This document shows positions 1-33,992 of a stretch of DNA of 42,657 bases, piece by piece. Positions within the stretch are counted from its first letter, which is position 1; each line of letters opens with the position of its first letter. Under the pieces are notes generated by a model. It was given only the letters and a program-made list of their open reading frames with translations, was not told the DNA's origin and searched no databases. The position numbers and the translations under genes were made by a program. This DNA comes from Bacteroidota bacterium (GTDB lineage: Bacteria > Bacteroidota > Bacteroidia > UKL13-3): the NCBI GenBank assembly GCA_947453415.1, contig CANGGG010000019.1, positions 1 through 42,657 on the forward strand. The letters run 5' to 3'.

Positions 1-1556
1 CGGGAACTGCAACTATTGGGAATGCTTTAAATATTACAGGAGCAGTAGATGCAGTAGGTGCAATTACATCTGGCGGTAATTTAACTATTAAATCTACAAG
101 TGCTACTGTAAATGGAAGAGTTGCTGGAAGTAATATAAGTGGCAATATCAATGTGGAAAGATTTATTCCTTCTCAAACTACCAGAAGATACCGTTTTTTA
201 TCTAGTCCGGTTGCTACAACAGTAGCAGATTGGAGAGGTGAAATATTTATTACTGGTGGTGGTGTGGATGGTGAATTTAGTTCGGTTGGAACAAATAATG
301 TTAAAACTGCAAATGGCTTAGATTGGACATTGAGTGGTGCAGCATCGATGTATGGTTATACAGAAAACTTAAATTCATTAGGATTAAATACACGTTGGGA
401 GGCTATTACTAATGCTTCAACTTCATTAACTGCTGGTAAAGGTTACCGCGTATTTATAAGAGGTGATAGAAGTAATGCTGGTGTTTTAGACAATTCAGTA
501 AGTACACAAGCAGCAGTTACTATTGTTTCTTCGGGTACTGTTAATTCAGGAACAATTACTTTACCAGCAACCTATAACGGTGGCACTGCAAATGATGGTT
601 GGAATTTAGTGGGTAATCCTTATCCATCAACAATTGATTGGAATGCTGCTTCTGGTTGGACAAAAACCAATGTGAGTGGTACAATTTGGATTTATAAACC
701 AAGTACCAATTCTTATGGAAATTGGGATGGCACTACTGCTACAAATTCAGTTACTCAATACATTTCATCGGGTCAAGCATTTTTTGTAAGAACCACAGGA
801 ACTCCAACATTTACTTGTACTGAGGCGGTAAAAACTGCTACTGCTGGAGCGGGTATTTTTAAAACTACGGAAGAAAACACTTTAAGAATTAGTTTGGCAA
901 AAGATGCTACCAATAGCGATGAAACAGTAATACGTTTCATGGAAGGTAAACAAAATGAATTTAGCGACAATGATGATGTTCGTAAATTTATCAATTCAGA
1001 AGTAAACGTATCAAGTAATTTTGGATTAGACCAATATGCCGCGGTAAATTATTTAGATCCTAAAAATTTAACAAATAAAGTAGTGCCAATCAGTGCTTGG
1101 GTTGACGTAAATGGAAGTTTCAAATTAAACTTTTCAGGTGTGAATTCATTCAATGCCACTCCATATGTAATGTTAAGAGATAAGTATTTAAATAAATTGG
1201 TTGATTTAAGAACAAATGCTACTTATCAATTTGATATTACCAATGATTCAAAAAGCAAAGATGACAATCGTTTTGAAGTGATTTTCTCAGATAAATCAAG
1301 TGGATTAAATGAAAGTAATTCAATGATAAACACCACCCTTTCAGTTTACCCTAACCCAGCAACAGATGTATTGAATATTTCTCTTTCAAATGGAACAACA
1401 ATAGAAACAGTAAATATTTATAATGTATCGGGTAAGTTGGTAAATAATATTAAACTAAACGGAAACCAAATAGACATTAGCCAATTAAACAATGGGGTGT
1501 ATATGGTAGAAGTATTAACACCAAACGGAACTTTTAAAACAAAATTTGTGAAATAG
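1..1556 (+). CDS. T9SS type A cargo protein, C-terminal part (5' end outside window)
   Basis: The reading frame is open from base 3, so this is the 3' part of a longer gene; the GTG at 153 is an internal Val, not a start. The visible protein is Gly/Asn/Thr/Ser-rich. It includes a block that begins VERFIPSQTTRRYRFLSSPV, found in large secreted Bacteroidota surface proteins, and a WNLVGNPYPSTIDW motif. The last ~75 residues (from LSVYPNPATDVLNISLSN to TKFVK) form a type A sorting domain, which directs export through the outer membrane by T9SS and cleavage by a PorU-type sortase. The function of the passenger is unknown. The TAG stop at 1554-1556 is also the first three bases of a heptanucleotide array. 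Confidence 0.85.
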   Translation, partial: GTATIGNALNITGAVDAVGAITSGGNLTIKSTSATVNGRVAGSNISGNINVERFIPSQTTRRYRFLSSPVATTVADWRGEIFITGGGVDGEFSSVGTNNVKTANGLDWTLSGAASMYGYTENLNSLGLNTRWEAITNASTSLTAGKGYRVFIRGDRSNAGVLDNSVSTQAAVTIVSSGTVNSGTITLPATYNGGTANDGWNLVGNPYPSTIDWNAASGWTKTNVSGTIWIYKPSTNSYGNWDGTTATNSVTQYISSGQAFFVRTTGTPTFTCTEAVKTATAGAGIFKTTEENTLRISLAKDATNSDETVIRFMEGKQNEFSDNDDVRKFINSEVNVSSNFGLDQYAAVNYLDPKNLTNKVVPISAWVDVNGSFKLNFSGVNSFNATPYVMLRDKYLNKLVDLRTNATYQFDITNDSKSKDDNRFEVIFSDKSSGLNESNSMINTTLSVYPNPATDVLNISLSNGTTIETVNIYNVSGKLVNNIKLNGNQIDISQLNNGVYMVEVLTPNGTFKTKFVK

Positions 1557-1648
1557 ACGATAGACCATAGTCCATAGTCCATAGTCCATAGACGATGGAC
1601 GATAGAATTCAAATAAACTATGGTCTATGGTCCATCAACCATCAACTA
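1554..1648. repeat. Heptanucleotide array with hairpin, starting at a TAG stop
   Basis: From the stop codon at 1554 there are seven consecutive 7-mers to 1602, such as TAGACGA, TAGACCA and TAGTCCA. After a short interruption four more follow in the opposite sense (1618-1645; CTATGGT, CCATCAA). Bases 1560-1570 and 1618-1628 are exact reverse complements (11 bp), so the transcript could form a hairpin behind the stop. This may act as a weak terminator or mRNA 3'-end stabiliser, but there is no T-tract. Confidence 0.85.
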
Positions 1649-1656
1649 AATAAAAT

Positions 1657-1839
1657 ATGAAAAAAATAATAGCAATCGCAACAATATTAGTAAGCATCAC
1701 TTTTGCAGCAAACGCACAGCCAGGAAGTACCACTGGAGGATTTGATGATGAACCCGTAGATGTTCCTGTAGATGGTGGCATTATAATGCTAGCAGCAGCT
1801 GGTGTAGCTTATGGTTACCGTCAGTTTGGGAAGAAGTAG
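1657..1839 (+). CDS. Small exported protein with PID-CTERM-like sorting tail
   Basis: A 60-residue protein. Residues 1-20 are a Sec signal peptide ending at ANA-Q. A short acidic linker follows (FDDEPVDVPV). The C-terminus has DGG, a hydrophobic stretch (IIMLAAAGVAYGY) and a basic end (RQFGKK). This layout (motif, one transmembrane helix, basic tail) matches the PID-CTERM proposed sorting domain of small Bacteroidota proteins; here the motif reads PVDGG rather than PIDGG. The mature part between signal and tail is only ~15-20 residues. No sorting protease for it is visible in the window. Its TAG stop is the first triplet of the 1837 repeat array. Confidence 0.7.
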   Translation: MKKIIAIATILVSITFAANAQPGSTTGGFDDEPVDVPVDGGIIMLAAAGVAYGYRQFGKK

Positions 1840-2121
1840 TGAGAAATGTGCACTGAGAGATGGGAGATGGGCACTGAGAGAAGAATGATGAAGTATGAAT
1901 GATGAAAATGCACTGAGCGCTGAGCACTGGGAAGTGGGAGATGGGAGATGGGAGATGGGCACTGAGAGAAGAATGATGAAGTATGAATGATGAAAAGGCA
2001 CTGAGCGCTGGGCACTGAGAGATGGGAGATGGGAGATGGGCACTGAGAGATGAAGTATGAAGTATGAAGTATGAATGATGAAGTATGAAAGATGAAAAGG
2101 CACTGTGCACTGAGAGACGGG
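1837..2121. repeat. Long heptanucleotide array, purine-rich on + strand
   Basis: Starting at the TAG stop at 1837, almost every base to 2121 falls into consecutive 7-mers: TAGTGAG first, then combinations of CACTGAG, AGATGGG, TGATGAA and GTATGAA. Register is broken only by two 4-base insertions (AATG, AAGG) and one further AAGG. Higher-order units of about 88 and 81 bp repeat (CACTGAG block at ~1872, ~1960 and ~2041). Long open frames on the minus strand here are artefacts of this composition. Confidence 0.9.
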
Positions 2122-2137
2122 AATTTAATGTCATGGT

Positions 2138-2186
2138 GAGCTTGTCGAATCCATACACAATTGTTCGAGAGGTCTTCGGCAAGCTC
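2138..2186. repeat. Imperfect inverted repeat of the GAGCTTGTCGAA family
   Basis: GAGCTTGTCGAA at 2138-2149 pairs with TTCGGCAAGCTC at 2175-2186 with one G:U-type mismatch. The same stem sequence, perfect, occurs at 8721-8760, so this is a dispersed palindromic element. Confidence 0.7.
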
Positions 2187-2278
2187 AGACTGACAAGAAT
2201 TTACATCAATTCAAAATTGTAATCATGCAAATCCTTTAATCTTAAAATCCTGATTCTGATAAAGTACGGGAAATTAAA

Positions 2279-2468
2279 TTTAAACTCACAAGTGACGCTC
2301 GTGTTACGATGCTAAACATTTGCGATAGTTGGGTTCTCGACTCCGCTCGAACTGACTAATGAGATTTTATCTATCGTCTATGGTCCAACAACGGGTATAT
2401 TTAAACTCACAAGTGACGCTCGTGTTACGATGCTAAACACTTGCGATAGTTGGGTTCTCGACTCCGCT
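2279..2468. repeat. Direct repeat of 69 bp, two copies 121 bp apart
   Basis: 2279-2347 and 2400-2468 are identical except for one base (ACATT versus ACACT). The unit ends in TTCTCGACTCCGCT, a word also present inside the glycosyltransferase gene near 12283. In addition, 33 bp at 2343-2375 recur exactly at 2650-2682, followed both times by a heptanucleotide run. The stretch 2187-2822 holds no convincing gene. Confidence 0.85.
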
Positions 2469-2510
2469 ACCATTGACGTTTTTTTGTTAACTTATAATAA
2501 TAAAGTAATT

Positions 2511-2610
2511 AGTCATTCAGTATTTCCTCTCGAGCGATACCCTTAATATGGCAACCAACTAAGAAATATCAATATTGGTTGCCGAGGAAAGGAGTTTCCT
2601 TCTGAATGAC
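2511..2610. repeat. Nested inverted repeat of about 100 bp (MITE-like or structured RNA)
   Basis: Three nested complementary pairs are visible: 2512-2520 with 2602-2610 (GTCATTCAG/CTGAATGAC), 2523-2529 with 2584-2590 (TTTCCTC/GAGGAAA), and 2550-2558 with 2575-2583 (GGCAACCAA/TTGGTTGCC). A further small hairpin is at 2589-2601. No coding potential is seen. It could be a non-autonomous element with terminal inverted repeats or a structured transcript. Confidence 0.6.
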
Positions 2611-2674
2611 ACCATGTCATTTTATATTGAATTTTTTGAAAAAAATTATCCGCTCGAACTGACTAATGAGATTT

Positions 2675-2725
2675 TATCTATCAACTATGGTCTATGGTCT
2701 ATCAACTATGGTCTATGGTCTATTA
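2675..2725. repeat. Heptanucleotide run (CAACTAT / GGTCTAT)
   Basis: Six to seven consecutive 7-mers alternate between CAACTAT and pairs of GGTCTAT. On the minus strand they read TAGACCA and TAGTTGA, the same words that follow stop codons elsewhere. No minus-strand gene ends here, so this copy is an orphan. Confidence 0.8.
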
Positions 2726-2797
2726 TATTTTTTCATCCTTCATACTTCAATGAGAAATATTAATAATATAGTAATGGAAAATATATTATGAATTGAT

Positions 2798-2805: not shown

Positions 2806-2822
2806 CTCGTTAATAGCCGTTT

Positions 2823-5609
2823 ATGCAACAAAAAATAATTTTATCTTTCTTTTTACTACTTATATTTTTAAACACAAAGGCGCAAACATGTGTGGGTGGC
2901 GGAAGTTCCAATATGCCAACCAAATGTTTTGAAATAGAAAGTGTACTAGCCGATGCTTGTAGTTTGGTGGAAGGTGAGGATGAAATGATCAGGTTAAGAA
3001 TTGGTCCTAATCCCATCGCATTAAATTCAATTAATACAGTAGTTTGGCAAACAGTAAACAGTTGGTTGGGTTTTTGTAGTATAACAGGAAGTACATTAAC
3101 CAAAATAAACTCCATTAACAATAGCATTATTGCCGCAGGTAATTGTGGACGATTTATTCCCATTAGTCCGGGAGGAACTTTACCAGCTTATTCCAAAGTG
3201 CTTTTTTTAACCAGTACCGATTTTAGCGCTACCGCCCACGATTTTTCAGGATTAACTGATACCATGTATGTAATTATACAATGTGCGGGAAATACAGGTG
3301 GACATTTTACCAATTCGGGGAACGTACCAAGAACATTAATTATAAAAACAAGCACTTGTGGCGATACCGTAAATTGGAATTCAGCAAATTTAATAGGAGG
3401 GAATGGTGCTGCCATTAATTTTACTTATGCAGGTGTGCCCAGTTATGTAAATTATGGATGTACTTTACCTGTAACGCCTTTTTCCTGCGATGCGGGAACT
3501 ACCAATCCTACTTATTGTAACGGTAGTACTTTAAATTTGGCAGGAACGGTTTCAGGTAGTAATTGTTATGTATGGCGTGCTAGTAATACTGCCACCGGAA
3601 CATTTGCAGATACTACCAATTTACTCACTACTTTTACTATTAGTACAGGTTATGTGGGTGCTGTAAAATTATATTTATTTACCAAATCAAATTGTAGCGT
3701 AAAAATAGATTCAGTGATGTTTAATGCCATTGCTTCTTCAGGAGTTTTAAATGCAGGAAACGATACTTCATTGTGTAATTCCATTGCATTTCATGTAAAT
3801 GCTACGAGTACTGCTACAGGAACTTATGCCTGGACAAAATCGGGTGCAGGAACATTGAATCAAACAAATATTTTAAATCCTATTTATACACCTTCTTTGC
3901 TTGATATAGGAATAGTAAATTTAATTGTTACCCAAACTACTACTTGTGGTGTGTTAAAAGATACCGTAAAAGTTACTTATACCAGTAAAGCCAATGCTAG
4001 TTTTACGCTCAGCGATAGTAATTTTTGTTATAACAATGTTCCTTTAAATATTAACTTAAATCCTACTGTTTCGGGAGGAGTTTTTACAAGTAGCACAGGA
4101 AGTTTTACTGCCAATGTTTTTACTTTTAACGCAGCTGGAAGCTTTACTATTAAGTATAAAATAGGAACTGGAAGTTGTGCCGATTCATTGACAAAACCAA
4201 TCAATGCAAATAACCATGCAAATCCAAATTTCAGTTTAAGTGATACCATAGTTTGTAAAAATGCGCCAGTAGTTGTTTTAACGCCAACTCAAGCTGGTGG
4301 CGTATTTTCGGGAACTAGGGTTATAGCAAACAGATTTACGCCTGATACTGTTGGAATATTTGGCCTAAAATATAAAATTTCAAATGGTGCTTGCATTGAT
4401 TCTTTAAGTAAAAATATAGAAGTTAAAGCCAAGCCAGATCCTTTCTTTATATCGTCAAAATCTACCTTTTGTTTAAATGATGCCAGTACTATATTAATAC
4501 CCAGTACCAGTGGAGGAATATTTTCAGGAACCAATGTTTCGGGTGCTGTTTTTACACCCAGTACTGTTGGTGTTTTTTCTGTAAAATACATTGTATCAAA
4601 TGCATTTTGTGTAGATTCATCTAACCAAAATCTTACAGTTTTTAATAAACCAAATCCTGCATTTACATTGTCTGATACATTGGTTTGTATTGGCTCGCCA
4701 ACTATTACCTTAACACCTACACAAGTTGGAGGCGTTTTTTCTGGAACCAATGTAAGCGCACAAATCTTTTCACCCATTACCACAGGAATATTCCCTATAA
4801 AATATTTAATTTCAAATGCTAATTGTGCCGATTCAGCTTATAAAAACATAGAAGTAAAACCTAAGCCTGATGCTTCATTTACTACTACTGATTCTGTTTT
4901 TTGTGTTAATGATGCCAGGGCAATATTTACGCCAACTGAAGCTGGTGGTGTGTTTACAGGAACCAATGTGATAGGAAATCAATATAACCCTATTACAGTT
5001 GGAAGTTTTATAGTAAAACATGTTATCAATAATGGAACCTGTGCCGACAGTAGTTTTAAAACCATGTTGGTTAATCCTAAACCTACTGCCAACTTTACAT
5101 ATACTCCCGCTAATCCTTATGCTTACGACACTGTTTATTTTACTTTTACTGGTGCCAATGCAACTAAGTATTATTGGAGTTTTGGTGATTTAAAAAATTC
5201 AAGCAGTAATTTGAAAGATCCGTTATTTGAATTTATTGATGTGAATGTATATAGAACATGGTTAAAAGTAAGCAACAATGAAGGTTGTAGCGATTCAATA
5301 TATAAAGATGTATCTGTTTTAAAGAGAGAAACAATTTTTGTGCCCAATGTATTTACTCCTCAAAACACGGATGGACTTGGTTTAAACGATTATTTTACCA
5401 TTCGTTCATATGGAATAAACAATTACCATATGCAAATTTATAACCGTTGGGGAAGTCTTTTGTATGAAACCAATAATATCAATCCAGGTTGGGATGGAAC
5501 TTTTAATGGCGATAGTTGTCCTGATGGTGTTTATTTTTACATCATAGATGCCATTGGATTCAGTAAAAAAACATACCATTTGCACGGAACTGTTACCTTG
5601 TTGAGATAG
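2823..5609 (+). CDS. Secreted adhesin-like protein, PKD domain and CHU_C (T9SS type B) sorting domain
   Basis: 928 residues with an N-terminal signal peptide (residues 1-20, ending NTKAQ). Residues ~24-220 form a Cys-containing lamin-tail-like region with CFEIESVLADACS. From ~395 to ~755 there are five tandem ~71-residue Ig-like repeats. Each has LSDxxxC, a GGVFSGT-type turn, a KYxISN strand and a CxDS motif, giving two Cys per repeat. A PKD-like domain follows (~757-835, YYWSFGD). The last ~90 residues are the gliding-motility-associated CHU_C domain (FVPNVFTPQN, IYNRWGSLLYE, WDGTFNGDSCPDGVYFY), the type B T9SS signal. The likely role is surface adhesion or a structural exoprotein; the ligand is unknown. 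Its TAG stop starts the 5607 repeat array. Confidence 0.88.
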   Translation: MQQKIILSFFLLLIFLNTKAQTCVGGGSSNMPTKCFEIESVLADACSLVEGEDEMIRLRIGPNPIALNSINTVVWQTVNSWLGFCSITGSTLTKINSINNSIIAAGNCGRFIPISPGGTLPAYSKVLFLTSTDFSATAHDFSGLTDTMYVIIQCAGNTGGHFTNSGNVPRTLIIKTSTCGDTVNWNSANLIGGNGAAINFTYAGVPSYVNYGCTLPVTPFSCDAGTTNPTYCNGSTLNLAGTVSGSNCYVWRASNTATGTFADTTNLLTTFTISTGYVGAVKLYLFTKSNCSVKIDSVMFNAIASSGVLNAGNDTSLCNSIAFHVNATSTATGTYAWTKSGAGTLNQTNILNPIYTPSLLDIGIVNLIVTQTTTCGVLKDTVKVTYTSKANASFTLSDSNFCYNNVPLNINLNPTVSGGVFTSSTGSFTANVFTFNAAGSFTIKYKIGTGSCADSLTKPINANNHANPNFSLSDTIVCKNAPVVVLTPTQAGGVFSGTRVIANRFTPDTVGIFGLKYKISNGACIDSLSKNIEVKAKPDPFFISSKSTFCLNDASTILIPSTSGGIFSGTNVSGAVFTPSTVGVFSVKYIVSNAFCVDSSNQNLTVFNKPNPAFTLSDTLVCIGSPTITLTPTQVGGVFSGTNVSAQIFSPITTGIFPIKYLISNANCADSAYKNIEVKPKPDASFTTTDSVFCVNDARAIFTPTEAGGVFTGTNVIGNQYNPITVGSFIVKHVINNGTCADSSFKTMLVNPKPTANFTYTPANPYAYDTVYFTFTGANATKYYWSFGDLKNSSSNLKDPLFEFIDVNVYRTWLKVSNNEGCSDSIYKDVSVLKRETIFVPNVFTPQNTDGLGLNDYFTIRSYGINNYHMQIYNRWGSLLYETNNINPGWDGTFNGDSCPDGVYFYIIDAIGFSKKTYHLHGTVTLLR

Positions 5610-5922
5610 TTGTCAGTTGATAGTTGTTGGGAAACGGGTTACGAGATACGGGTTAGCGGGTTAGCGGGTTACGAGATATTGGTTAGCGGGTTACGAGATT
5701 CGGGTTAGCGGGTTACGAGATACGGGTTAGCGGGTTACGATTTTAAGGGATATCGGGTTACGAGATATGGGTTAACGGGTTACGAGATATTGGTTAACGG
5801 GTTTCGAGATACGGGTTAGCGGGTTACGAGATATTGGTTAACGGGTTTCGAGATACGGGTTAGCGGGTTACGAGATTTGGGTTAGCGGGTTACGAGATTC
5901 GGGTTAGCGGGTTAGCGGGTTA
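5607..5922. repeat. Compound heptanucleotide array, 22-bp higher-order unit
   Basis: Begins at the TAG stop (5607) with TAGTTGT and CAGTTGA. It then passes in the same 7-bp register into a long run of CGGGTTA, GCGGGTTA and CGAGATA. The 7+8+7 pattern gives a 22-bp unit repeated about a dozen times with variants (TTGGTTA, CGAGATT). The GGGTTA core recalls telomere repeats but this is an internal intergenic region. Confidence 0.9.
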
Positions 5923-5931
5923 ATTTTTTTT

Positions 5932-6186
5932 ATACTTCATCCTTTCCCAACTCTCATTTCTCAGTGCTCATCTCCCAATTCTCATCTCTCAGTGCTCACC
6001 TCTCTTTTTTCATTTCATCATTCATCATTTATACTTCATACTTCATCCTTTCCCAACTCTCATTTCTCAGTGCTCATCTCCCAATTCTCATCTCTCAGTG
6101 CTCACCTCTCTTTTTTCATTTCATCATTCATCATTTATACTTCATACTTTATCATTCATACTTCATAATTTATACTTCATACTTAA
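5932..6186. repeat. Pyrimidine-rich heptanucleotide array with 106-bp tandem duplication
   Basis: Built of 7-mers such as CTCAGTG, CTCATCT and ATACTTC, the reverse complements of the words in the 1837 array. 5932-6043 repeats as 6038-6149 with a period of 106 bp (15 x 7 + 1, one 8-mer per unit). The open frame across it on the + strand is low-complexity and not considered a gene. The array ends ~35 bases before the sod start. Confidence 0.9.
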
Positions 6187-6220: not shown

Positions 6221-6955
6221 ATGAAAGTATCACGAAAAACCTTTGTAAAATCAGCGGCTATTTTAGCTGGCGCAACCCTATTAAATACTCAAAAAACTGA
6301 AGCACAAATAACTGCTGCTTTGGTTAATTTGGAAAACGATTTTGCTTTACCACCTCTTGGTTATAGTTACGATGCTTTAGAACCATTTATTGACAGGCAA
6401 ACCATGGAAATTCATTATTCAAAACACCATCAAGCTTATGTAAATAAACTGAATGAAGGCAAAGCTAAAATAACAAGTTGGAACTATAAAACGTTGAATG
6501 ATGTGTTGGAAAATATCAATGATATTCCAAAAGATTTGCAGGGTGCTATTCGCAATAATGCAGGCGGACATTATAATCATTCGTTGTTTTGGTCGTTGTT
6601 AAAAACAAATACATTTCCAAAAGAAAAGGCTTTGAAAATGATCAATGAAAATTTTGATAGTATGGAAAATTTCAAACAATTATTTACCAAAGCTGCCATG
6701 GGAATATTTGGAAGCGGTTGGGTTTGGTTAATTAAACAAGACGGTAAAATGAAAATTATTACTACTCCTAATCAAGACAATCCGTTAATGACAGGAATAG
6801 CAAAAGATTTAGGAACTCCAATCATTGCTTTAGATATTTGGGAACATGCCTATTATTTAAAATACCAGAACAAACGTGCCGATTATGTAACAGCTTTTTG
6901 GAGTATTTTAAATTGGGAGAAAGTGGAAGAGTTGCTATTAGCCTCTAGCCGCTAG
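6221..6955 (+). CDS. sodA: Exported manganese-type superoxide dismutase
   Basis: Converts superoxide to hydrogen peroxide and oxygen. 244 residues, about 40 more than a cytosolic SOD because of an N-terminal export signal. That signal, SRKTFVK then AAILAGATLL, looks like a Tat signal with one Arg replaced by Lys (a Sec reading is also possible). The four metal ligands are present: His65 (HYSKHH), His120 (NHSLFW), and Asp205 and His209 (DIWEH). GSGWVWL followed by NQDNPL is the Mn-type signature (Gln near the metal), although cambialistic use of Fe cannot be excluded. The final codons (ASSR and stop) lie inside a TAGCCNC heptanucleotide array, so the extreme C-terminus is repeat-derived. Confidence 0.93.
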   Translation: MKVSRKTFVKSAAILAGATLLNTQKTEAQITAALVNLENDFALPPLGYSYDALEPFIDRQTMEIHYSKHHQAYVNKLNEGKAKITSWNYKTLNDVLENINDIPKDLQGAIRNNAGGHYNHSLFWSLLKTNTFPKEKALKMINENFDSMENFKQLFTKAAMGIFGSGWVWLIKQDGKMKIITTPNQDNPLMTGIAKDLGTPIIALDIWEHAYYLKYQNKRADYVTAFWSILNWEKVEELLLASSR

Positions 6956-6966
6956 CTGCTAGCCAC
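6939..6966. repeat. Heptanucleotide array spanning the sod stop codon
   Basis: Four 7-mers: TAGCCTC, TAGCCGC, TAGCTGC and TAGCCAC. The first two are translated as the end of SOD; the third begins with the in-frame TAG stop at 6953. Confidence 0.85.
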
Positions 6967-7010
6967 TATCAAAAACTGTTTATTAATAAAGTAAAAGTAT
7001 ATATTTAAAA

Positions 7011-7673
7011 ATGATTCAAAGGCCAGAAGCCAGCAGCCAGCAGCCAGTAGCCCTTTTCCCAAGCACCTATTTACCTAATTTGGTATATGCAAAACATTTG
7101 CTTTTGGCAGATGAAATATTGCTTGAAAAGCATCAAAATTATTTGAAGCAAACGTATGCAAATCGTTGTCATATTTTGGGCGCAAATGGCGTGCAGGTTT
7201 TGAGTATTCCAACTGTTAAAATACATTTTTCAAAACAAGCTTTTGGCGAGGTGAAAATTAACTACGATGAAAGCTGGCAAAAGCAGCATTGGTTGGCGTT
7301 TCAATCGGCTTACGGAAACTCCTCATTTTGGTTTTATTACAAAGATTTTTTTGAGCCATTTTACTTCCAACAAAAGCATGAATATTTGTTTGATTTCAAT
7401 ACCGAATTATTGAAAATAATTTTAAAACTGCTGAAACAAGAAAAACCAATTTCTTACACTGAAAAATACGAATTGGAATATACTAATATTACCGATTTGC
7501 GTAATTATTTTGATGCTAAAAAACGCAATCAACAAGAAGTAATAGCAGGAGAAAATATGAAGAAATATTTACAAGTATTTACTGAAAAATATCCTTTTCA
7601 AGCTAATTTATCAGTACTGGATTTATTAATGAATCAAGGTCCGCAAAGTAAAAATTATTTATTGAATGATTAA
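7011..7673 (+). CDS. WbqC family protein
   Basis: 220 residues resembling the WbqC family (often encoded with surface-polysaccharide genes; reaction unknown). Supporting motifs are the N-terminal FPSTYLPNLVYAKHL, a W-rich middle (SWQKQHWLAFQSAYGNSSFW) and Y/F-rich strands typical of the family. The first ~13 residues (RPEASSQQPVA) are encoded by a CCAGCAG heptanucleotide array, so the native start may have been altered by repeat insertion; the ATG at 7011 is the only good start. It overlaps the next gene by 8 bases, indicating a two-gene operon with mnmH. Confidence 0.8.
   Translation: MIQRPEASSQQPVALFPSTYLPNLVYAKHLLLADEILLEKHQNYLKQTYANRCHILGANGVQVLSIPTVKIHFSKQAFGEVKINYDESWQKQHWLAFQSAYGNSSFWFYYKDFFEPFYFQQKHEYLFDFNTELLKIILKLLKQEKPISYTEKYELEYTNITDLRNYFDAKKRNQQEVIAGENMKKYLQVFTEKYPFQANLSVLDLLMNQGPQSKNYLLND
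7023..7050. repeat. Heptanucleotide array inside the 5' end of the wbqC-like gene
   Basis: CCAGAAG, then CCAGCAG twice, then CCAGTAG, all translated. The related word occurs at 27110-27144 at the end of another gene. Confidence 0.8.
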
Positions 7674-11603: not shown

Positions 11604-12859
11604 AACATTTTGTTCAAATAATCGGCAGCATTTTTTATATCGTAATGTGCAAGTAAACTTGGGTTTGCTTGCACATTTTTGTTTTCAATGGCTTGTAAAA
11701 CTTCTTCTATGTTGTTTGCAGCAATGCTTTTACTTTCGTTAATTAAATTAAGTAAACCGGCTTTAGCATAGGCAATAACAGGTGTTCCCACCAAAATACT
11801 TTCATGTGCTACTCGGTTCCAACCTTCATTAATTCCGGTAAGTGCTAATGTAAATTCACTCAAAGCCATTTGTGTTAAATAGTTTTCGAATTTGTCAAAG
11901 TAAACCACTTCGTATGTGGAAGTTTTTGATGCAAAATCTTTGAAGTTTGTACTGAAATAACAATAGTAACCTTGTTCTGTTAGATGCTTTGCAATTTCAA
12001 AAACATCAGCATGGTTTTTAAAACTCCATTGGCCTAAATGAATTTGTTTTTTCTTATTGTTTTTTATGTAGTGCGGATTCACAGTCATGTCGAGCGGAGT
12101 TGCTGTCATGTCGAGCGGAGTCGAGACATTATTTGCCTGTTCTCGATTCCGCTCGAACTGACTGTTTTTAAGCTCGAACTGACTATTAATGTCAAGCTCA
12201 TTTTTTGACTTGTCGAGCGGAGTTGCTGTCATGTCGAGCGGATTCACAGTCATGTCGAGCGGAGTCGAGACATTATTTGACTGTTCTCGACTCCGCTCGA
12301 ACTGACTGTTTTTAAGCTCGAACTGACTGTTTTCAAGTTCGAACTGACTGTTTTTTTGAATAAATTTTTCATAATATTCACCATCAAAAAAGTTTGGAAA
12401 ATAAAAAATAGGAATATTGTTTTTTGTTTTTTCTTTAAAATATTGCACCCAAAAAGGTGCAACTGTTACAATAGAAATATTTTTATTTTTGGTGTTTTTT
12501 AAAACAAAAAACAAAGCTTGATAATATAAATTGAGCCAAAAAGATTTCCCGTCATTTTTATCAAAATAATGTAAAACAATATAAACTTTGTTTTGGGTAA
12601 ATGCATTGCGAAGCACAGCAAATAAAGCAACTCTGGCTACTACAATATTATAATTTGCATTGGCGGTTAAGCCTAACAAAAATAGTTTTATATAAGCAAA
12701 TGGATTGGTGTAAAAACGATTTTTTCTGTCGATTTCTAACGTTACATGTTCTCCTTTTTGATTTAAAAATTGTTGCAATTGTTCCGCAAAAAAAAGCTCG
12801 TGTTTGTAGCCACCAGTTTCATATTTACCATAAGAAATATATTTAATAAACTTCTTCAA
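11600..12859 (-). CDS. Glycosyltransferase (GT-B type) with repeat-derived insertion
   Basis: 419 residues. The N-terminal domain starts GKYETGGYKHELF (the GGY loop typical of family 4-like transferases). The C-terminal domain has KQIHLGQWSFKNHADVFEIA and the donor-binding motif GWNRVAHESILVGTPVIAYA, where the Glu is expected to contact the nucleotide sugar. It probably acts in envelope glycan synthesis. Residues ~167-263 are low-complexity repeats (NSQFELK, STPLDMT, ATPLDMT) encoded by intergenic-type repeat DNA and lying between the two domains. The start appears to be TTG at 12859, since there is no upstream ATG before a stop. The last 4 bases overlap the convergent toxin gene. Activity with the insertion is uncertain. 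Confidence 0.8.
   Translation of the reverse strand: MKKFIKYISYGKYETGGYKHELFFAEQLQQFLNQKGEHVTLEIDRKNRFYTNPFAYIKLFLLGLTANANYNIVVARVALFAVLRNAFTQNKVYIVLHYFDKNDGKSFWLNLYYQALFFVLKNTKNKNISIVTVAPFWVQYFKEKTKNNIPIFYFPNFFDGEYYEKFIQKNSQFELENSQFELKNSQFERSREQSNNVSTPLDMTVNPLDMTATPLDKSKNELDINSQFELKNSQFERNREQANNVSTPLDMTATPLDMTVNPHYIKNNKKKQIHLGQWSFKNHADVFEIAKHLTEQGYYCYFSTNFKDFASKTSTYEVVYFDKFENYLTQMALSEFTLALTGINEGWNRVAHESILVGTPVIAYAKAGLLNLINESKSIAANNIEEVLQAIENKNVQANPSLLAHYDIKNAADYLNKMF
12075..12356. repeat. Intergenic repeat family inserted in frame within a coding sequence
   Basis: About 280 bp of 7-mer-based words (GTCATGT, CGAGCGG, AGTCGAG, CGAACTG, ACTGTTT) form two large related blocks. 25 bases at 12283-12307 are identical to the intergenic copy at 2333-2357. 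Three 7-mers make 21 bp, seven codons, which explains the 7-residue protein period NSQFELK. The reading frame is kept throughout. Confidence 0.88.
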
Positions 12860-23946: not shown

Positions 23947-24939
23947 ATGTCAGATTCAAATTTTGTAGATTACGTAAAAATATGTTGCCGAAGTGGCAAA
24001 GGGGGGAAGGGAGCAATGCATTTTATGCGTGATAAACATACAGCAAAAGGTGGACCTGATGGCGGTGATGGCGGACGTGGAGGAAATATTATTCTGAGAG
24101 GAAGCACCAATGCTTGGACTTTAATTCATTTAAAATACCGTAAGCACGTAATTGCGGAGCCAGGTGGAAATGGTGATGCAGGTTTAAGAAGTGGCGCACA
24201 AGGTAAAGATGAATACATAGAAGTGCCACTTGGAACTGTAGCTAAAGATGTAGAAACAAACGAAGTTTTAGCCGAAATTACTGAAGCCGGACAAGAATTT
24301 GTAATTTTAAAAGGTGGAAGAGGCGGATTGGGAAATCATCATTTTAAAAACTCGGTGAACCAAAATCCAAGATATGCCCAACCAGGTGAAGACGGTAAAG
24401 AAGAATGGAAAGTTTTAGAGTTAAAAGTTTTAGCTGATATTGGTTTAGTTGGATTTCCAAATGCGGGTAAGTCTACTTTATTGTCTGTTATTTCAGCTGC
24501 AAAACCCGAAATTGCTGATTATCCTTTTACTACTTTAGTTCCTAATTTAGGAATAGTAAAATACCATGAATACCAAAGTTTTGTGGTAGCCGATATTCCA
24601 GGAATTATTGAAGGTGCGCATGAAGGCAAAGGTTTAGGAACTCGTTTCCTTCGCCATATTGAACGAAATGCAACTTTGCTTTTTATGGTTCCTGCTACCA
24701 GTGAAGATATTAAAGGTGAGTACAAAATATTGCTCAATGAACTTAAACAATACAACAAAGAGCTAACTGATAAAAAGCGTTTGTTGGCCATTACCAAGTG
24801 CGATTTGGTAAGTCCTGAAGAATTAAAAGCAATCAAAAAATCATTGCCAAAAGTGCCAAGTATATTTATTAGTTCTGCTTCAAACTTTCATATTGACGAA
24901 CTAAAAGATAAACTTTGGAACATGATTAATGAGGATTAG
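23947..24939 (+). CDS. obgE: GTPase Obg/CgtA
   Basis: Ribosome-associated GTPase of the large subunit. 330 residues: the Gly-rich Obg fold (1-158, with [11 protein letters not shown]-type repeats and GGDGGRGG), then the G domain with G1 [11 protein letters not shown], switch motif FTTLVPN, G3 DIPGII, and G4 TKCD. There is no long C-terminal extension. The TAG stop at 24937 begins a heptanucleotide run, followed by a strong terminator. Confidence 0.95.
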
Positions 24940-24971
24940 TTGTCAGTTGATAGTTGTCGGTTGATAGGAAA
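24937..24971. repeat. Heptanucleotide run from the obgE stop codon
   Basis: Five 7-mers in register with the TAG stop: TAGTTGT, CAGTTGA, TAGTTGT, CGGTTGA and TAGGAAA. It runs directly into the terminator hairpin. Confidence 0.85.
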
Positions 24972-25000
24972 AATCCGTTACATATGTAACGGATTTTTTT
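24969..25000 (+). terminator. Rho-independent terminator after obgE
   Basis: Perfect palindrome around CCGTTACATATGTAACGG with flanking A and T runs (A5 before, T7 after). Works in principle in both directions. The clearest intrinsic terminator in the window. Confidence 0.88.
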
Positions 25001-27109: not shown

Positions 27110-27144
27110 TTGCCAGAGGCCAGGAGCTAGAAGCCAGAAGCCTA
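27110..27144. repeat. Heptanucleotide array starting at a minus-strand TAG stop
   Basis: Read on the minus strand from the TAG at 27144: TAGGCTT, CTGGCTT, CTAGCTC, CTGGCCT and CTGGCAA. It is the reverse-complement family of the CCAGCAG words at 7023-7050. Confidence 0.8.
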
Positions 27145-28071
27145 CTTATTTATTTGTAATATTCTAATGGGCGCTTTAGCAGGCACCAAACCTGCTTTTA
27201 AAATAATGCGTTGACCTTGGTCACCAATAATATAATTGATAAAATCATTACCCAAAGTTAAACTCGCTTGTCTGCCTATTACAAATATTTCTCTACAAAA
27301 AGGATATTGCCTAATGGCAACATTGGCCTGAATGGGTTTATAGGTTAAGGATTCATAAGTAATTTTTCTTGGAATTACTTCCACCACTTTTATTCGATTC
27401 AAAAAGCCTTTCATTTTACTATCGTCCTTATCGCTTATCCAGTTTAGGCCAATAATACCAATGGCATTTTTGTTTTTTTCTACATAATCTATCACTTCCG
27501 GATTGGTATTTACCGCAAAACAATGTTTGGCTAAATCTTTTCCATTCAATAAAGAATCTTTAAAATATTGCGTAGCACCCGAACCCGGGTTATCAAAAAC
27601 TACTTGCAATTTACCGAGTTTATTTTTACTGAAAATTTGACTCCAATCAGTAGCTGTTCCATCCATTAATTGTTTAATTTGATTGACAGTAAAAATGGTA
27701 TCAGTATTTTCCTTATTTACTATAAATGCCAAGGCATCAATGGCGATTTTTATTTGCGAAAATTTGTATTGTTCTTGGTCAATGGCTACTTGTTCAGCAG
27801 CAGTTGCCCTGCGAGGAATAATGGCTAACTTACAGCTGTCGGCAAGCATTAGGCGCATGGCCTCAGCTGGATTAGTGTAAATAAAATCTATTTTTTTTTG
27901 ATCGTTGATGGATTCAAAAACCATTTCTTCGGCTTCTATCACAGGGCGTAAACTTTCATCTACCGCTACACTAATTCTGTTGTTATCTTCTACCGCTTTT
28001 TTGGGTTCGTTGTCATTGCCACAGGCAAAAAAAACAAAGCTTGTAAAAGCTAAAATGATGCTATATTTCAT
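27142..28071 (-). CDS. PstS-like substrate-binding lipoprotein
   Basis: 309 residues with a lipoprotein signal (Cys17 in FFACGN). The periplasmic-binding fold has RISVAVDESLRPVIEAE at the start and LMLADSCKLAIIPRRATAAE. DNPGSGATQYFKDSL resembles the phosphate-binding loop of PstS (SGT/S-type), and the C-terminal GNDFINYIIGDQGQRIILKAGL is PstS-like. No pstCAB genes follow, so it may be a stand-alone phosphate sensor or scavenger. A -7 box (TAACTTTG on the minus strand, 28102-28109) lies ahead. Confidence 0.82.
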   Translation of the reverse strand: MKYSIILAFTSFVFFACGNDNEPKKAVEDNNRISVAVDESLRPVIEAEEMVFESINDQKKIDFIYTNPAEAMRLMLADSCKLAIIPRRATAAEQVAIDQEQYKFSQIKIAIDALAFIVNKENTDTIFTVNQIKQLMDGTATDWSQIFSKNKLGKLQVVFDNPGSGATQYFKDSLLNGKDLAKHCFAVNTNPEVIDYVEKNKNAIGIIGLNWISDKDDSKMKGFLNRIKVVEVIPRKITYESLTYKPIQANVAIRQYPFCREIFVIGRQASLTLGNDFINYIIGDQGQRIILKAGLVPAKAPIRILQINK

Positions 28072-28228: not shown

Positions 28229-28268
28229 AAAACTATCAACTGACAACTATCAACTAACAACTAAACTA
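28229..28268. repeat. TAGTTGT/TAGTTGA heptanucleotide run
   Basis: On the minus strand, TAG stop (28268-28266), TT, then five 7-mers (TAGTTGT, TAGTTGA, TAGTTGT, CAGTTGA, TAGTTTT). This is the one stop-adjacent array out of register with the stop, by two bases. Confidence 0.8.
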
Positions 28269-29618
28269 CTGTTCCATATACAAGTTAATATCGTCTATAA
28301 TTTTAAGGCTAATGGTTTCGTAAGTTTTATCGGCTAGTGTTTGTTGGCTGGCTAAACTTCGGTTCAATTCATCAAACTTATCAGTCCATTCTTTGGGTGC
28401 AATTGGCATGAAGTTTCCTGCTGGTAAACTAGGGTACAAATTGTCTTTATTACCATCAAATCGGGCGTAAACATGGACATCAAATGCTTCATCGCTAAAA
28501 ACTTCCGATGAAACAATTTGTCCGCTTTGAACCGATACCAATTGGTAAGAAACCTTGGCAGTTACTTTTCTGTATTGTTTTGTTTCTTTGTAATTTACTT
28601 TTTTAAATTTTATCACCGATTGCGCATCGCCTGTTTCATTCACTACTCGTTGGCTAAACGATTCGTATGCTGTTTCAATAGAGGTAGTTGGCTTCATTTC
28701 GTCAAAAATTACTTCATTAACATCTATCAATAAAAAATACTTAGCACCAATTAATTTACCTGCTCTACTAGCCGTTTCAGCATCAGTAATTCCAGCAATT
28801 TCAAATGTTTTTTCTTTCAATAAATTTTCTAAATTATTTCGATCTAATATTTTCAAAAAAGGGTTCTTTGAATTGCCTAATTTATCTAACAATAACTGGT
28901 AAAATGAACTGTCTTCTTGATTAGTAAATTTTTTTTTACTCACCAAAATAGCGGCAATGGGCAAACTTGCTTTTTGTAAGGATTCATTCAATAACTGCAC
29001 AGTTTGCTTATAAGTTTTGTCAAAACTAGCTACTTGGTTAAAAACTTTGTAGGCAGATTTGTAATTTTTTACCTCCATGTATTTTACACCTTGATTGTAT
29101 AAAGGTTCCACCACACTTTGAATACGTAACACAGACACCTTTTTATAACTGCTGTCAAATTCTAAAATTCTATCAAAAGCTAATTCTGCTTTATCAAATT
29201 TGTTTTCCTTTATTAGGCCAAGGCCAATGTCGTATTGTTTGCCAATAAATTCTTGCTTAGTTTCCTCGTAAAGTTGGTCGTAAAGTGTTTGCCAATTCAG
29301 GTCAATGTCAATGTTTTTTAATTGATTGAAATATTCTTTACAGTAATTATATTGCCTTAAAGCATCTTCATTATCACCCGAAACCACATGTTTGGCAAAA
29401 GCGCTGAACTTTGCGTCAAGCACCATTTGTGCACTCTTTTGTAAGCCCAATTTAGCTTTAGTGTTTTTGGGATTGATAAAAAATGCGCTATAATAATTAT
29501 CGGCAGCATCGCTGTAATTACCTTCTGTTGCTTGTTTATCGGCAATTTGAACAAACTTTAACGAGCTGTCGCAAGCCATTAGTTGAAGTAGGAACAGAAA
29601 TAATAAAAGTTTTTTCAT
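28266..29618 (-). CDS. Lipoprotein with TPR-like and CsgG-like regions
   Basis: 450 residues, lipoprotein signal with Cys16 (LLQLMACDS). Residues ~20-215 are helical TPR-like repeats (ADKQATEGNYSDAADNYYSAF, PKNTKAKLGLQKSA). The second half has LKILDRNNLENLLKEKTFE, ITDAETASRAGKLIGAKYFL and ID, which resemble the CsgG-like fold of curli-type and penicillin-binding-protein activator lipoproteins. Role unknown; probably outer-membrane associated. Confidence 0.75.
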   Translation of the reverse strand: MKKLLLFLFLLQLMACDSSLKFVQIADKQATEGNYSDAADNYYSAFFINPKNTKAKLGLQKSAQMVLDAKFSAFAKHVVSGDNEDALRQYNYCKEYFNQLKNIDIDLNWQTLYDQLYEETKQEFIGKQYDIGLGLIKENKFDKAELAFDRILEFDSSYKKVSVLRIQSVVEPLYNQGVKYMEVKNYKSAYKVFNQVASFDKTYKQTVQLLNESLQKASLPIAAILVSKKKFTNQEDSSFYQLLLDKLGNSKNPFLKILDRNNLENLLKEKTFEIAGITDAETASRAGKLIGAKYFLLIDVNEVIFDEMKPTTSIETAYESFSQRVVNETGDAQSVIKFKKVNYKETKQYRKVTAKVSYQLVSVQSGQIVSSEVFSDEAFDVHVYARFDGNKDNLYPSLPAGNFMPIAPKEWTDKFDELNRSLASQQTLADKTYETISLKIIDDINLYMEQ

Positions 29619-30510: not shown

Positions 30511-30545
30511 AGTTGGGCACTGGGAAATGAGAGATGGGATGTGAG
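30511..30545. repeat. Short heptanucleotide run after rluF
   Basis: AGTTGGG, CACTGGG, AAATGAG, AGATGGG and ATGTGAG, the same word class as 1837-2121 and in the same sense relative to the upstream gene, but ~32 bases beyond the TAA stop. The remaining intergenic DNA to 30757 holds no gene. Confidence 0.7.
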
Positions 30546-31414: not shown

Positions 31415-32088
31415 TGGTAAAGTCTTTTATAAATTTTTTCCTCAAAATCATTTCTATATTCCTGATAATTGAAACTTAAGTCATATCTGTAATAATTTTG
31501 TGCTTCATTTCCTATCGAATCATAAAAGAAAATATTTTCGTTACAAAAATGATAACTTGGAATAGTAGAGTTTAAATTTACAAAATTACTCCAGTAAACT
31601 TGTTGTTTTTCTTTACTTAAAGTAATCAATTTGTTGTTAACTTTTATCCTTTTTAAACGGTAGCCAATTCTGATATTTTGTAAATTATTCAAATACCAAA
31701 ATTGATGAGGATTTCTTATAGTTGTTTGGAAAATTGCTTTTTCATTTTTTAATAAAAAACCAATTGGAAAACTAAATTCATCACTTACGATTCTTTTGTT
31801 GTAATTTTCAATTATTGGCGGATAAAAATCAAATAATTCATCAATATAAACTTGATTGAAAGATATAGTAAAACTATCATTTGATAAATTAGTGACAGTA
31901 ATTGCAACTACATAAATTGGATTGTTTTCGAAATCTTTATCTTTCTTCAAAATCTCCAACTTCACATCAAGATTATAAGTTAATGTATCTTTCTTTGTTG
32001 GAACTACAACTTTTTGCTCAATCTGCTTACCGCAAGAAACCATGATTGCAAAAGCAATAAATAAGATAAAGATTTGTTTTGATTTCAT
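31411..32088 (-). CDS. Lipoprotein of unknown function, paralogue A
   Basis: 225 residues; signal MKSKQIFILFIAFAIMVSC with Cys19. Motifs shared with its neighbour are DVKLEILKKD, LSNDSFTISF, HQFWYLNNLQNIRIGYRL and QQVYWSNFVNLNSTIPSY. Translationally coupled to the downstream paralogue (4-base overlap). No family recognised; the two could form a heteromer or reflect antigenic diversification. Confidence 0.75.
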   Translation of the reverse strand: MKSKQIFILFIAFAIMVSCGKQIEQKVVVPTKKDTLTYNLDVKLEILKKDKDFENNPIYVVAITVTNLSNDSFTISFNQVYIDELFDFYPPIIENYNKRIVSDEFSFPIGFLLKNEKAIFQTTIRNPHQFWYLNNLQNIRIGYRLKRIKVNNKLITLSKEKQQVYWSNFVNLNSTIPSYHFCNENIFFYDSIGNEAQNYYRYDLSFNYQEYRNDFEEKIYKRLYQ

Positions 32089-32137
32089 GTGGTTTGGCTT
32101 GCTAATAAACGAATATTTGATTGATTTATTACAACCC

Positions 32138-32626
32138 TTATTCCACCAACAATTGCATCAAATTTACATCAAGTACTTTATTGAATTTTACACCTACTTG
32201 TTTTAAAACGCCTACCATAAAAAAGCCAAAATGCTCATGAAGTTTAATGCTAATATCATTGCCTTCGGTAATGCGTGCCAATACCGCTTTTACACCATTT
32301 TTTATTCCTTGCTGTAAGCAATATTCCATTAAAGGTTTACTTAGTTTTTGTCCTTTAAAATTAGGGTGCAAATAAATGCTAAACTCTGCTGTTCTATCAT
32401 ATGCCGTTCGGTCGCTGTAACGAGTTAAACTTGCCCATCCCGCTATTTCATTATTTATTTCGCAAACTACCACACAGTATTTTTCATCATGGTGATTGAA
32501 CCAAATTTGCATGTCGGCAAGGGTTTTATTTTCTATGTCAAAAGTAGCTGTTGAATTTATAACAGCATCGTTATAAATAGCAGTTATTGCAGGTAAATCA
32601 TTGGTATTTGCAGCGCGTAAAATCAT
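32138..32626 (-). CDS. GNAT acetyltransferase (phosphinothricin acetyltransferase-like)
   Basis: 162 residues. ILRAANTNDLPAITAIYNDAV, STATFDIE, AGWASLTRYSDRTAYDRTAEFSIY and the acetyl-CoA loop (HPNFKGQKLSKPLMEYCL) match the Pat/Bar group. LHEHFGFFMVGVLKQVGVKF is the usual C-terminus. Acetylates an amino group of a small molecule such as methionine sulfone or phosphinothricin analogues; the natural substrate is unknown. Nine bases after mvaB. Confidence 0.87.
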   Translation of the reverse strand: MILRAANTNDLPAITAIYNDAVINSTATFDIENKTLADMQIWFNHHDEKYCVVVCEINNEIAGWASLTRYSDRTAYDRTAEFSIYLHPNFKGQKLSKPLMEYCLQQGIKNGVKAVLARITEGNDISIKLHEHFGFFMVGVLKQVGVKFNKVLDVNLMQLLVE

Positions 32627-32635
32627 ATTTGTTAT

Positions 32636-33496
32636 TTATTCAGCATGGTCAAAAACTTGATTGGCTAAAAGCAATGAATTGGTAAATTCAGTTTCATTTA
32701 AACCAGTTTCCAAATTCAAGTTGTTAAAGTAAGAAAACATATTTTCAGTAGGCATATTTCCTGTTAAATCATCAGTTGCCATTGGGCAACCACCAAAACC
32801 TTTCATGGCGCCATCAAAACGTTTGCAACCATTTTTATAAGCAGCCTCTATTTTTTCTTGCCAAGTATTTGGCGTGGTATGCAAATGCGCACCAAATTCA
32901 ATATTAGGAAAAGTTGGAATTAAATGTTTGAATAAATATGCTATCGTTTCTGGATTGGCAATGCCAATGGTATCGCTCAATGAAATAATTTTGATACCTA
33001 ATTGATCCATTTCTTTTACCCATTTTTCAACTATTTCAGTGTTCCAATCATCGCCATAAGGATTTCCAAAACCCATAGAAATATACACTACTAATTCTTT
33101 ATGATTGCTTATGCAAAGCTGTTGAATGGCTTTTACAGTTTCCAAACTTTCAGCTATGCTGCTGTTGGTATTTCGTTGCTGAAAAGTTTCACTGATTGAA
33201 AATGGAAAACCTAAATAAGTTATTTCAGGATATTGAACAGCCATTTCAGCTCCTTTTAAATTGGCAATAATGGCTAACAATTTGGTATTAGTTTGCGCTA
33301 AATTTAAACCCGCCAAAACTTCTTTGGTATCTGCCATTTGAGGAATGGCTTTTGGCGATACAAAACTTCCAAAATCTAGGGTATCAAATCCTACTTTTAA
33401 CAGCTGATTGATATAATCAATTTTGGTTTGAGTAGGAATAAAATGGTGCAAGCCTTGCATGGCATCGCGCGGACATTCAATAATTTTTATAGCCAT
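32636..33496 (-). CDS. mvaB: Hydroxymethylglutaryl-CoA lyase
   Basis: Cleaves HMG-CoA to acetyl-CoA and acetoacetate in leucine degradation. 286 residues, a DRE-TIM barrel. ECPRDAMQGLHHFIPT carries the catalytic Arg and Asp, LSDTIGIANP is conserved, GAHLHTTPN gives metal-binding His, and the active-site Cys is in GFGGCPMATDDLTGNMPTE. The usual GASGN is here DDLTGN. Between yraN (3-base gap) and the acetyltransferase (9-base gap), so in one operon. Confidence 0.9.
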   Translation of the reverse strand: MAIKIIECPRDAMQGLHHFIPTQTKIDYINQLLKVGFDTLDFGSFVSPKAIPQMADTKEVLAGLNLAQTNTKLLAIIANLKGAEMAVQYPEITYLGFPFSISETFQQRNTNSSIAESLETVKAIQQLCISNHKELVVYISMGFGNPYGDDWNTEIVEKWVKEMDQLGIKIISLSDTIGIANPETIAYLFKHLIPTFPNIEFGAHLHTTPNTWQEKIEAAYKNGCKRFDGAMKGFGGCPMATDDLTGNMPTENMFSYFNNLNLETGLNETEFTNSLLLANQVFDHAE

Positions 33497-33499
33497 AAT

Positions 33500-33868
33500 T
33501 TAATAGGTTGTATAAGGATAAAATGCATCTTCAAAATGCAAAATTTCTGTCTCTGTTTTATATTTAATAATGGCAATAATATCAAACCTGATTTCACAAG
33601 TTAATTGATTGCTTTCTTGGTATAATAAGGCCGCTTCCACCAATGTTTTTTGTTTGGCTTTACTCACTGCATTTTCAGGATTTACTAAATTACTATTCCT
33701 GGTTTTTACCTCTACTATTACCAAACAGTTTTGGTGCTTTGCAATGATATCGACTTCGGTTTTATTTTGTCTGAAATTTCGTTCTAAAATTTCAAAACCT
33801 TTATTTAACAAAAAGTCACAAGCCAATTGCTCTCCAATTTCACCTGTGACTTTATTGTTATTCTTCAT
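33500..33868 (-). CDS. yraN: YraN family (UPF0102) endonuclease-like protein
   Basis: 122 residues. GEIGEQLACDFLLNKGFEIL, NKTEVDIIAKHQNCLVIVEVKTRN (the D-ExK nuclease-like core) and AVSKAKQKTLVEAA are the family signatures. Function undetermined; the fold resembles Holliday-junction resolvases. First gene of the operon with mvaB. The fbp-derived repeat array ends just before its start. Confidence 0.9.
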   Translation of the reverse strand: MKNNNKVTGEIGEQLACDFLLNKGFEILERNFRQNKTEVDIIAKHQNCLVIVEVKTRNSNLVNPENAVSKAKQKTLVEAALLYQESNQLTCEIRFDIIAIIKYKTETEILHFEDAFYPYTTY

Positions 33869-33873
33869 TTTTT

Positions 33874-33992
33874 TTTAGTTTTTAGTACTTAGTTTTTAGT
33901 ACTTAGTACTTAGTTCTTAGTTGTTTTTATCAATTATTGTCTATGGTCCATCGTCTATAGTCCATCAACTATCAACTGACAACTATCAACTA
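33874..33992. repeat. Uninterrupted 17-unit heptanucleotide array from the fbp stop codon
   Basis: Read on the minus strand from the TAG stop at 33992, 119 bases divide into 17 exact 7-mers with no break. They change family along the way: TAGTTGA/CAGTTGA, then TGGACTA/TAGACGA, then TAATTGA and TAAAAAC, then AACTAAG/TACTAAA. It fills the entire gap between fbp and yraN (6 bases from the yraN start). Confidence 0.93.

Follow-up and report, generated by a model that had tools for sequence, protein, structure and literature searches.

Introduction

The heptanucleotide repeats of cyanobacteria, xanthomonads and Beggiatoaceae have been on record for decades without agreement on their cause, and two reports place such repeats in cyanobacteria, Xanthomonas, Nostoc, Beggiatoaceae and some Bacteroidetes (PMC4679880; PMC4692102). 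Genes of the S23p family (PF05635, 23S rRNA-intervening sequence protein), which encode four-helix-bundle proteins, are also very common, and their function is unknown. The intervening sequence (IVS) of Coxiella carries three GACAGAT heptamers, variable in number, in front of an S23p open reading frame (ORF) (PMC4990558). In this study, we analyzed the intergenic heptamer arrays of a window of 42,657 nucleotides, namely contig CANGGG010000019.1 (C19) of a lake-dwelling Bacteroidota bacterium of the UKL13-3 lineage (assembly GCA_947453415.1; 2.89 Mb, 107 contigs), together with relatives matched by sequence, which are metagenome-assembled Bacteroidetes. Our results suggest that the arrays are probably arms belonging to one family of palindromic cassettes between genes, which in their full form enclose a small ORF, most often an S23p gene. 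The simplest single account of the window is that its arrays are ORF-less members of this class, laid out like the IVS of rRNA.

Facing Arms and S23p Genes

The best-conserved feature of the arrays is their arrangement as facing, mirror-image arms. Among 804 intergenic regions of this and the related genomes, left and right arms were strongly associated (co-occurrence counts 22, 39, 43 and 700; odds ratio 9.2; p = 6e-11), and words of the TAG type were directed outward from gene boundaries in 62 cases and inward in 22. Predicted RNA hairpins reached z values of -3 to -8 at most sites tested, a few exceptions lying near 0. When neighbouring arrays within 6 kb were compared, direct similarity overall exceeded inverted similarity.

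The link to S23p genes emerged at site L073, where the TAGTACT alleles hold an extra ORF of Pfam family PF05635. This genome has five copies of the family and its relatives have 4-12. Heptamer arrays were present on both sides of 11 of 33 PF05635 genes, whereas the rate was 1.1% among 1,128 other ORFs and 0.8% among 239 ORFs of comparable length, and the inverted score of the flanks was 20.3 for PF05635 genes versus 11.3 otherwise. Ranking 1,197 unselected ORFs by inverted similarity of their flanks placed three PF05635 genes in the top 22, along with a likely transposase of the repetitive extragenic palindromic (REP) type and ordinary terminators. Each arm family that occurs without an ORF (TAGTTG, TAGAC, TRGC, TAGTACT and GCAAT) was also found around an S23p gene in the genus, and the S23p tree within the genus grouped by arm family, most groups being orthologous sites too. 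Ends that are complementary and can pair into a long stem, a trait of the IVS, were observed in the hairpin z values of ORF-less sites and in the inverted scores of PF05635 flanks; a further trait, an S23p ORF between the arms, was present in the gene-bearing form and absent from the window arrays.

Three individual genes deserve mention. In L261 (G001:C212), a TAGAC-armed S23p ORF is broken by an in-frame TAA while its arms are kept, possibly a step towards the ORF-less form. The start of the S23p ORF at L245:1455-1851 (reverse) reads through array words (MARCQKLEAKK..), and its start codon may be misplaced. At L167:6410-7024, a likely REP-type (Y1) transposase gene, recognized by eye only, lies in a near-perfect palindrome (ACCGATGCCATCGCTTAAAGCGATGGCATCGGT), and elements resembling REP-associated tyrosine transposases (RAYT) seem to coexist in the genus.

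The association extends well beyond the genus. PF05635 was detected in 75 of 99 sampled Bacteroidota genomes, with up to 16 copies, and in none of 14 well-known control genomes. At 28 loci from other families of the phylum, arms of the same locus matched better than arms of different loci (14.7 vs 10.0, p = 2.7e-10), and lags of 7 and 8 bases alone stood out. On plasmids of Nostoc, Calothrix, Anabaena, Stanieria, Geminocystis, Pseudanabaena, Picosynechococcus, Trichormus, Aulosira, Riemerella and Azospirillum, S23p genes had a lag-7 array upstream in 13 of 15 cases and downstream in 10 of 15, with 0-3 genes at lags 5, 6 and 8-11; control genes on one such plasmid had an upstream lag-7 array in 2 of 33 cases (p = 5e-8 against 13 of 15). 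The control stretch also held another S23p gene, whose arms were near-perfect, with AATTCGC repeated in one flank and GCGAATT in the opposite flank. Lag-7 segments numbered zero in 160 kb from four genomes without PF05635 and seven in 200 kb from five rich ones, a comparison that is small and not clean.

On several cyanobacterial plasmids (L314, L319, L322 and L313), S23p genes lie inside gene clusters; their neighbours on the two sides are cas6 and cas4 in two cases, cmr genes in another and ribonucleotide reductase subunits in a further one. A plasmid search with TAGAC words returned no match, and one with TAGTTG words matched E. coli plasmids and one Hymenobacter plasmid only. The E. coli matches (18 records, e.g. 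NZ_CP098233.1:24598-24632) are TAGTTGT/CAGTTGA-like heptamer arrays with no annotated feature underneath.

Switching of Word Families Between Species

Orthologous sites carried arms of different word families. Across nine genomes at 89-98% protein identity, the SDR site had TAGAC, TAGTTG or TAGTACT arms, and both arms belonged to one family in seven of eight orthologues. Site L055 had TAGAC arms in G000, G001 and G004, TAGTTG arms in G007 and G008, and GCTAG arms in G002. Site L073 had GCTAG arms in G000 and G003, TAGAC arms in G001, G004 and G009, and TAGTACT arms in G006, G007 and G008. Judged from protein identities, G001, G004, G007 and G008 are close and G002, G003, G006 and G009 far, so the distribution of arm families does not track overall relatedness and the arms behave as exchangeable alleles.

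At the boundary of two metH-like genes, named by eye from translated flanks, the enclosed gene changes as well. In G000, G003 and G005, GCTAG arms enclose an S23p gene from a single clade. In G001, G006 and G009, the arms are of the TAGAC family and the S23p gene between them is only 30-35% identical to the first. In G002, G004, G007 and G008, the enclosed ORF belongs to PDDEXK_3 (PF13366) and its arms are of the CACAGAG type. Three cassettes of arm, ORF and arm therefore swap at this site, ORF and arms changing together, and the metH and L073 sites offer natural sets of same-site alleles for studying element replacement. All Pfam-identified ORFs between word arms belonged to PF05635 or PF13366, and a flanked Y1 transposase, the trait of REP/RAYT systems, was not encountered among them.

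PDDEXK_3/GxxExxY ORFs were also seen between inverted arms of the CACAGAGG type, with steps of about nine bases in some records. Armed records came from the metH site (L346, L347 and L348), B. finegoldii (L350), Gemmatirosa (L351) and Bernardetia (L349); GxxExxY records of Fusobacteria, Treponema and Sphingomonas had no clear arms. PDDEXK_3/GxxExxY may thus form a second cargo class with a different word length.

Several observations weigh against the cassette interpretation. No PF05635 gene lies between the window's own arrays or anywhere else in the window, and five PF05635 genes stand against many more arrays in the genome, so most arrays are ORF-less; the membership of the window arrays in the cassette class is accordingly inferred from common words and sites. 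Both arms were of the same word family in 11 of 22 cases against 5.5 expected (p = 0.009), a count in which orthologous sites are not independent, and over all word classes the match of left and right arms was not significant (p = 0.19), hence inverted pairing is established for TAG-type words only. Arm words and ORF lineage coincide mostly at orthologous sites, and alleles common to several species may reflect old polymorphism instead of movement. Neither target-site duplications nor empty sites were defined, and three of five PF05635-rich genomes had no lag-7 array in a 40-kb sample.

Seven-Base Register and Array Growth

The original prediction held that at least a dozen stretches of the window divide into consecutive 7-mers. 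Segments were scored when at least 22 of 28 bases matched at a given lag, with a looser test of 15/21. The window contained eight such segments at lag 7, nine at lag 14, seven at lag 21 and three at lag 28, with at most one at each remaining lag from 2 to 30 and an average of about 0.05 in shuffled sequences. In 1.23 Mb of the genome there were 42 segments at lag 7 (2,014 bp), 27 at lag 14 and 13 at lag 21; the best lag outside multiples of seven was lag 8 with eight segments, and a Markov control gave one segment at lag 7. Non-coding sequence made up 63% of lag-7 segment bases and 16% of all bases. The register is therefore genome-wide, and the division of the listed stretches into 7-mers was borne out in general; 30511-30545 was weak and failed the criterion, the arrays at 6939, 24937 and 27110 pass the looser test only, and 5634-5914 is a regular 22-bp unit of 8+7+7 (CGGGTTAG+CGGGTTA+CGAGATA).

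The view that the unit and not any sequence is conserved was not supported: a small dictionary of words recurs across sites and species (TAGTTGW, TRGACSA, TRGCYNC, TAGTWCT, GCAATRR and AAGTATG). That words change while site and register persist was seen across eight to nine genomes at the SDR and L073 sites and at the FBPase site, where nine genomes of the genus have arrays with changed words. Indel lengths in automatic alignments of orthologous arrays were multiples of seven in 25 of 135 cases, which was not significant (p = 0.10); the keeping of register thus rests on the stop-codon phase described below and on by-eye comparison of orthologues. An assembly artefact is an unlikely source of the arrays, since they occur at the same sites in independently assembled relatives and the same architecture is found on complete plasmids.

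Neutral slippage would explain the arrays as the product of a polymerase slipping preferentially by seven bases and escaping mismatch repair, which handles short loops; arrays would be tolerated only between genes, and S23p genes would merely insert into or survive near them. Among long simple repeats, heptanucleotides are the most frequent in many bacteria, and the footprint of the polymerase has been suggested as their cause (Mrazek, 2007, cited in PMC4679880 and PMC4692102); the higher-order repeats of 14, 21, 81 and 106 bp inside our arrays look like slippage and duplication. The argument of the original prediction that slippage should yield identical copies is not conclusive, as slippage with point mutation and recombination could also keep register. 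However, slippage alone predicts neither the facing orientation, the same-family arms of a site and the joint switching of both arms, nor the common dictionary at unlinked sites and the strong association with PF05635 in several phyla. We therefore regard it as an unlikely explanation of the whole, although it may well be the source of word-by-word growth within arrays, in line with earlier proposals.

Stop Codons and the Arrays of the Window

The suggestion that the TAG within a word matters was supported for the gene's own stop. All eight array-ended genes of the window use a TAG stop that is in phase with the words, TAG making up 21% (142/685) of the stops of the genome. After TAG stops (164 genes), a second TAG followed at +7, +14, +21 and +28 in 11, 14, 12 and 13 genes, against about 2.6 genes per offset elsewhere; TAA (604 genes) and TGA stops showed no peak of TAG at seven-base steps. 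The related genomes showed the same lock (7.0 vs 0.89 per offset), with binomial probabilities of about 5e-15 for this genome and about 1e-16 for the relatives. This recurrence indicates that the stop codon belongs to the array register.

In the left part of the window, an arm of TAGACGA/TAGACCA/TAGTCCA words (1554..1606, plus strand) begins at the TAG stop of gene 153-1556 and faces a right arm, CTATGGTC.. (1618..1648, minus strand), of the reverse-complement family; the region 1554-1648 folds as a hairpin with z about -5.7. A long array of TGAGAGA/TGGGAGA/TGAAGTA words (1837..2121, plus strand) takes its first word from the TAG at 1837-1839 that ends the small ORF 1657-1839, and right arms of CTATCAACTATGGTC words followed by TTCATCCTTCATACTTCA occupy 2675..2749 on the minus strand, the CTATCAACTATGGTC words matching the inverted 1554 arm with a score of 31. 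TAGTTGT/CAGTTGA words (5607..5633, plus strand) start at the TAG stop of gene 2823-5609; among orthologues, G004 and G008 have TAG with an array, and more distant ones have TAA and no array. They are followed by the CGGGTTA/CGAGATA array with the 22-bp unit (5634..5914, plus strand) and by a TGAGAGA/TGAAGTA-family array (5932..6186, minus strand), which matches 1837-2121 with a score of 77 in inverted and 6 in direct orientation.

At the superoxide dismutase gene 6221-6955, TAGCCTC/TAGCCGC words (6939..6968, plus strand) overlap the last codons and the TAG stop, so that the array words even encode the final residues; G004 and G008 have TAGAC words in both arms at this site. The facing arm of the inverted 6939 family, GGCCAGAAGCCAGCAG.. 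(7017..7052, minus strand), runs into the start of the WbqC-like ORF 7011-7673, which begins inside the array and whose start codon may be misplaced. Words of TAGTTGTCAGTTGATAG (24937..24967, plus strand) extend from the TAG stop of obg. On the minus strand, TAGGCTTCTGGCTTCTAGC words (27110..27144) extend from the TAG stop of the PBP-like gene 27142-28071, orthologues having GCAATGG words or no array, and TAGTTTAGTTGTTAGTTGATAG words (28229..28268) from that of the CsgG/TPR gene 28266-29618. At the FBPase gene 33990-34991 (minus strand), TAGTTGA..TAGACGA..TGGACCA words (33935..33992, minus strand) extend from the TAG stop, and a facing arm of TTAGTAC/TTAGTTC words (33872..33930, plus strand) adjoins the start of gene 33500-33868 (minus strand). 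An Rfam scan of the window gave no match, including none to rRNA. The 21-bp repeats TGTCGAGCGGAGTCACAGTCA at 12066-12355 resemble a dispersed palindrome, GTCATTTCGAGCGAAGTCGAG, of several intergenic regions in the genus.

A role in expression would also account for the strong hairpin potential, the placement exactly at stop codons and the paired changes of both arms: gene-end hairpins would insulate, terminate or stabilise transcripts, TAG words would stop translation in all frames, and selection on the stem would keep the words in step. Against this, the stems at L057:8185 and L073:17195, among the few sites inspected by eye, show no U-tract when read in the upstream gene's direction and do not qualify as intrinsic terminators, and obg has a separate normal terminator (~24968-25000) after its array. 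In addition, many orthologous sites lack arrays with no visible consequence, and the neighbouring genes share no function. Such a role therefore appears quite improbable as the reason for the arrays.

It has been proposed that the TAACTGA repeats of Beggiatoaceae are bound by a post-transcriptional or nucleoid protein that reads seven-nucleotide units (PMC4679880). Here, at least four unrelated word families replace one another at the same sites, and the arrays stand mostly after stops rather than before starts, which makes a binding-site explanation very hard to credit in this genus.

Proposed Cassette Model

For the mobility of the cassette, the role of its protein and the reason for the seven-base step, we infer the following scheme. 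A cassette would consist of two facing arms of tandem, degenerate seven-base (sometimes eight-base) words. Cassettes may spread and replace one another by inserting and by recombining through the conserved genes at their flanks, while the length of an arm may change by slippage, one word per step. The arms could stay complementary through template switching or because a stem is required, as it is in rRNA IVS RNA, and an S23p-like protein might bind the stem and help to copy or insert the unit. Because the words would present a stop codon in every frame, a cassette could directly abut a coding region. That would account for upstream genes ending at the first in-frame TAG of the array.

A broader and only tentative possibility is that heptanucleotide arrays in many phyla are paired arms of one mobile or allele-replacing cassette class coupled to small ORFs: S23p with seven-base (eight-base) arms and possibly PDDEXK_3/GxxExxY with arms of about nine bases, the word length being set by the associated protein reading or copying one word per step.

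Comparison With Known Systems

The arrays share with cyanobacterial short tandemly repeated repetitive (STRR) sequences and prokaryotic long simple sequence repeats a tandem seven-nucleotide unit, mainly in non-coding DNA. They differ in their degenerate, mixed words kept in register, their facing arms and the stop-codon lock; near-identical copies, typical of those repeats, are not seen here, and identical tandem TAGTTGA is absent from the window.

The GGGAATC and GGGGA(C/T)T repeats of Xanthomonas and Nostoc are closer in arrangement. As described by Rehm et al. (2015, PMC4692102), they are intergenic heptamers read on the coding strand near stops and on the non-coding strand near starts, that is, outward; many Xanthomonas repeats form facing inverted pairs (70 in X. 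campestris), and sites are common to species with variable length and sequence. Unlike our arrays, which are AT-rich and of several families, each has one G-rich word, read as G-quadruplex DNA (PMC4692102). The words TAGTTGA, TAGACCA and TAGTACT have no runs of at least three G, GGG being present in CGGGTTA (5634-5914) and some TGGGAGA words. G-quadruplexes therefore cannot be the general reason, and the cassette interpretation would explain facing heptamer pairs in several phyla without them. The sections of that report consulted here do not mention S23p genes (PMC4692102); the solved S23p-family structure 2gsc (XCC0516) comes from X. campestris.

The original prediction knew of no description in Bacteroidota, which was incorrect, as MacGregor (2015, PMC4679880) reported TAACTGA and other heptamers in five Bacteroidetes. 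Those repeats, found also in Beggiatoaceae and Cyanobacteria, are likewise intergenic heptamer arrays with a scattered phylogeny, and other heptamers share the same Bacteroidetes intergenic regions (PMC4679880). However, they stand mostly right before start codons and are explained as the site of a regulator (PMC4679880), whereas the window arrays run mostly outward from stop codons in facing pairs. The window contains no tandem TAACTGA and seven single copies.

REP/RAYT systems have a similar layout, in which intergenic palindromes flank a gene-bearing form, but the present cassettes lack a Y1 transposase and their arms are tandem 7-mers instead of fixed short hairpins.

An incomplete literature search found no paper linking heptamer arrays to S23p genes outside rRNA. 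Such a link would give both a testable role, namely a protein acting on stems of seven-base words. The 23S rRNA IVS, exemplified by Coxiella, likewise has complementary ends that form a stem around an ORF of the PF05635 type (PMC4990558). It lies in rRNA helices and is cut out of the transcript (PMC4990558), whereas the arrays and PF05635 genes described here lie between protein genes and most copies have no ORF. The cassette interpretation would thus add an intergenic relative to the intervening sequences of rRNA.

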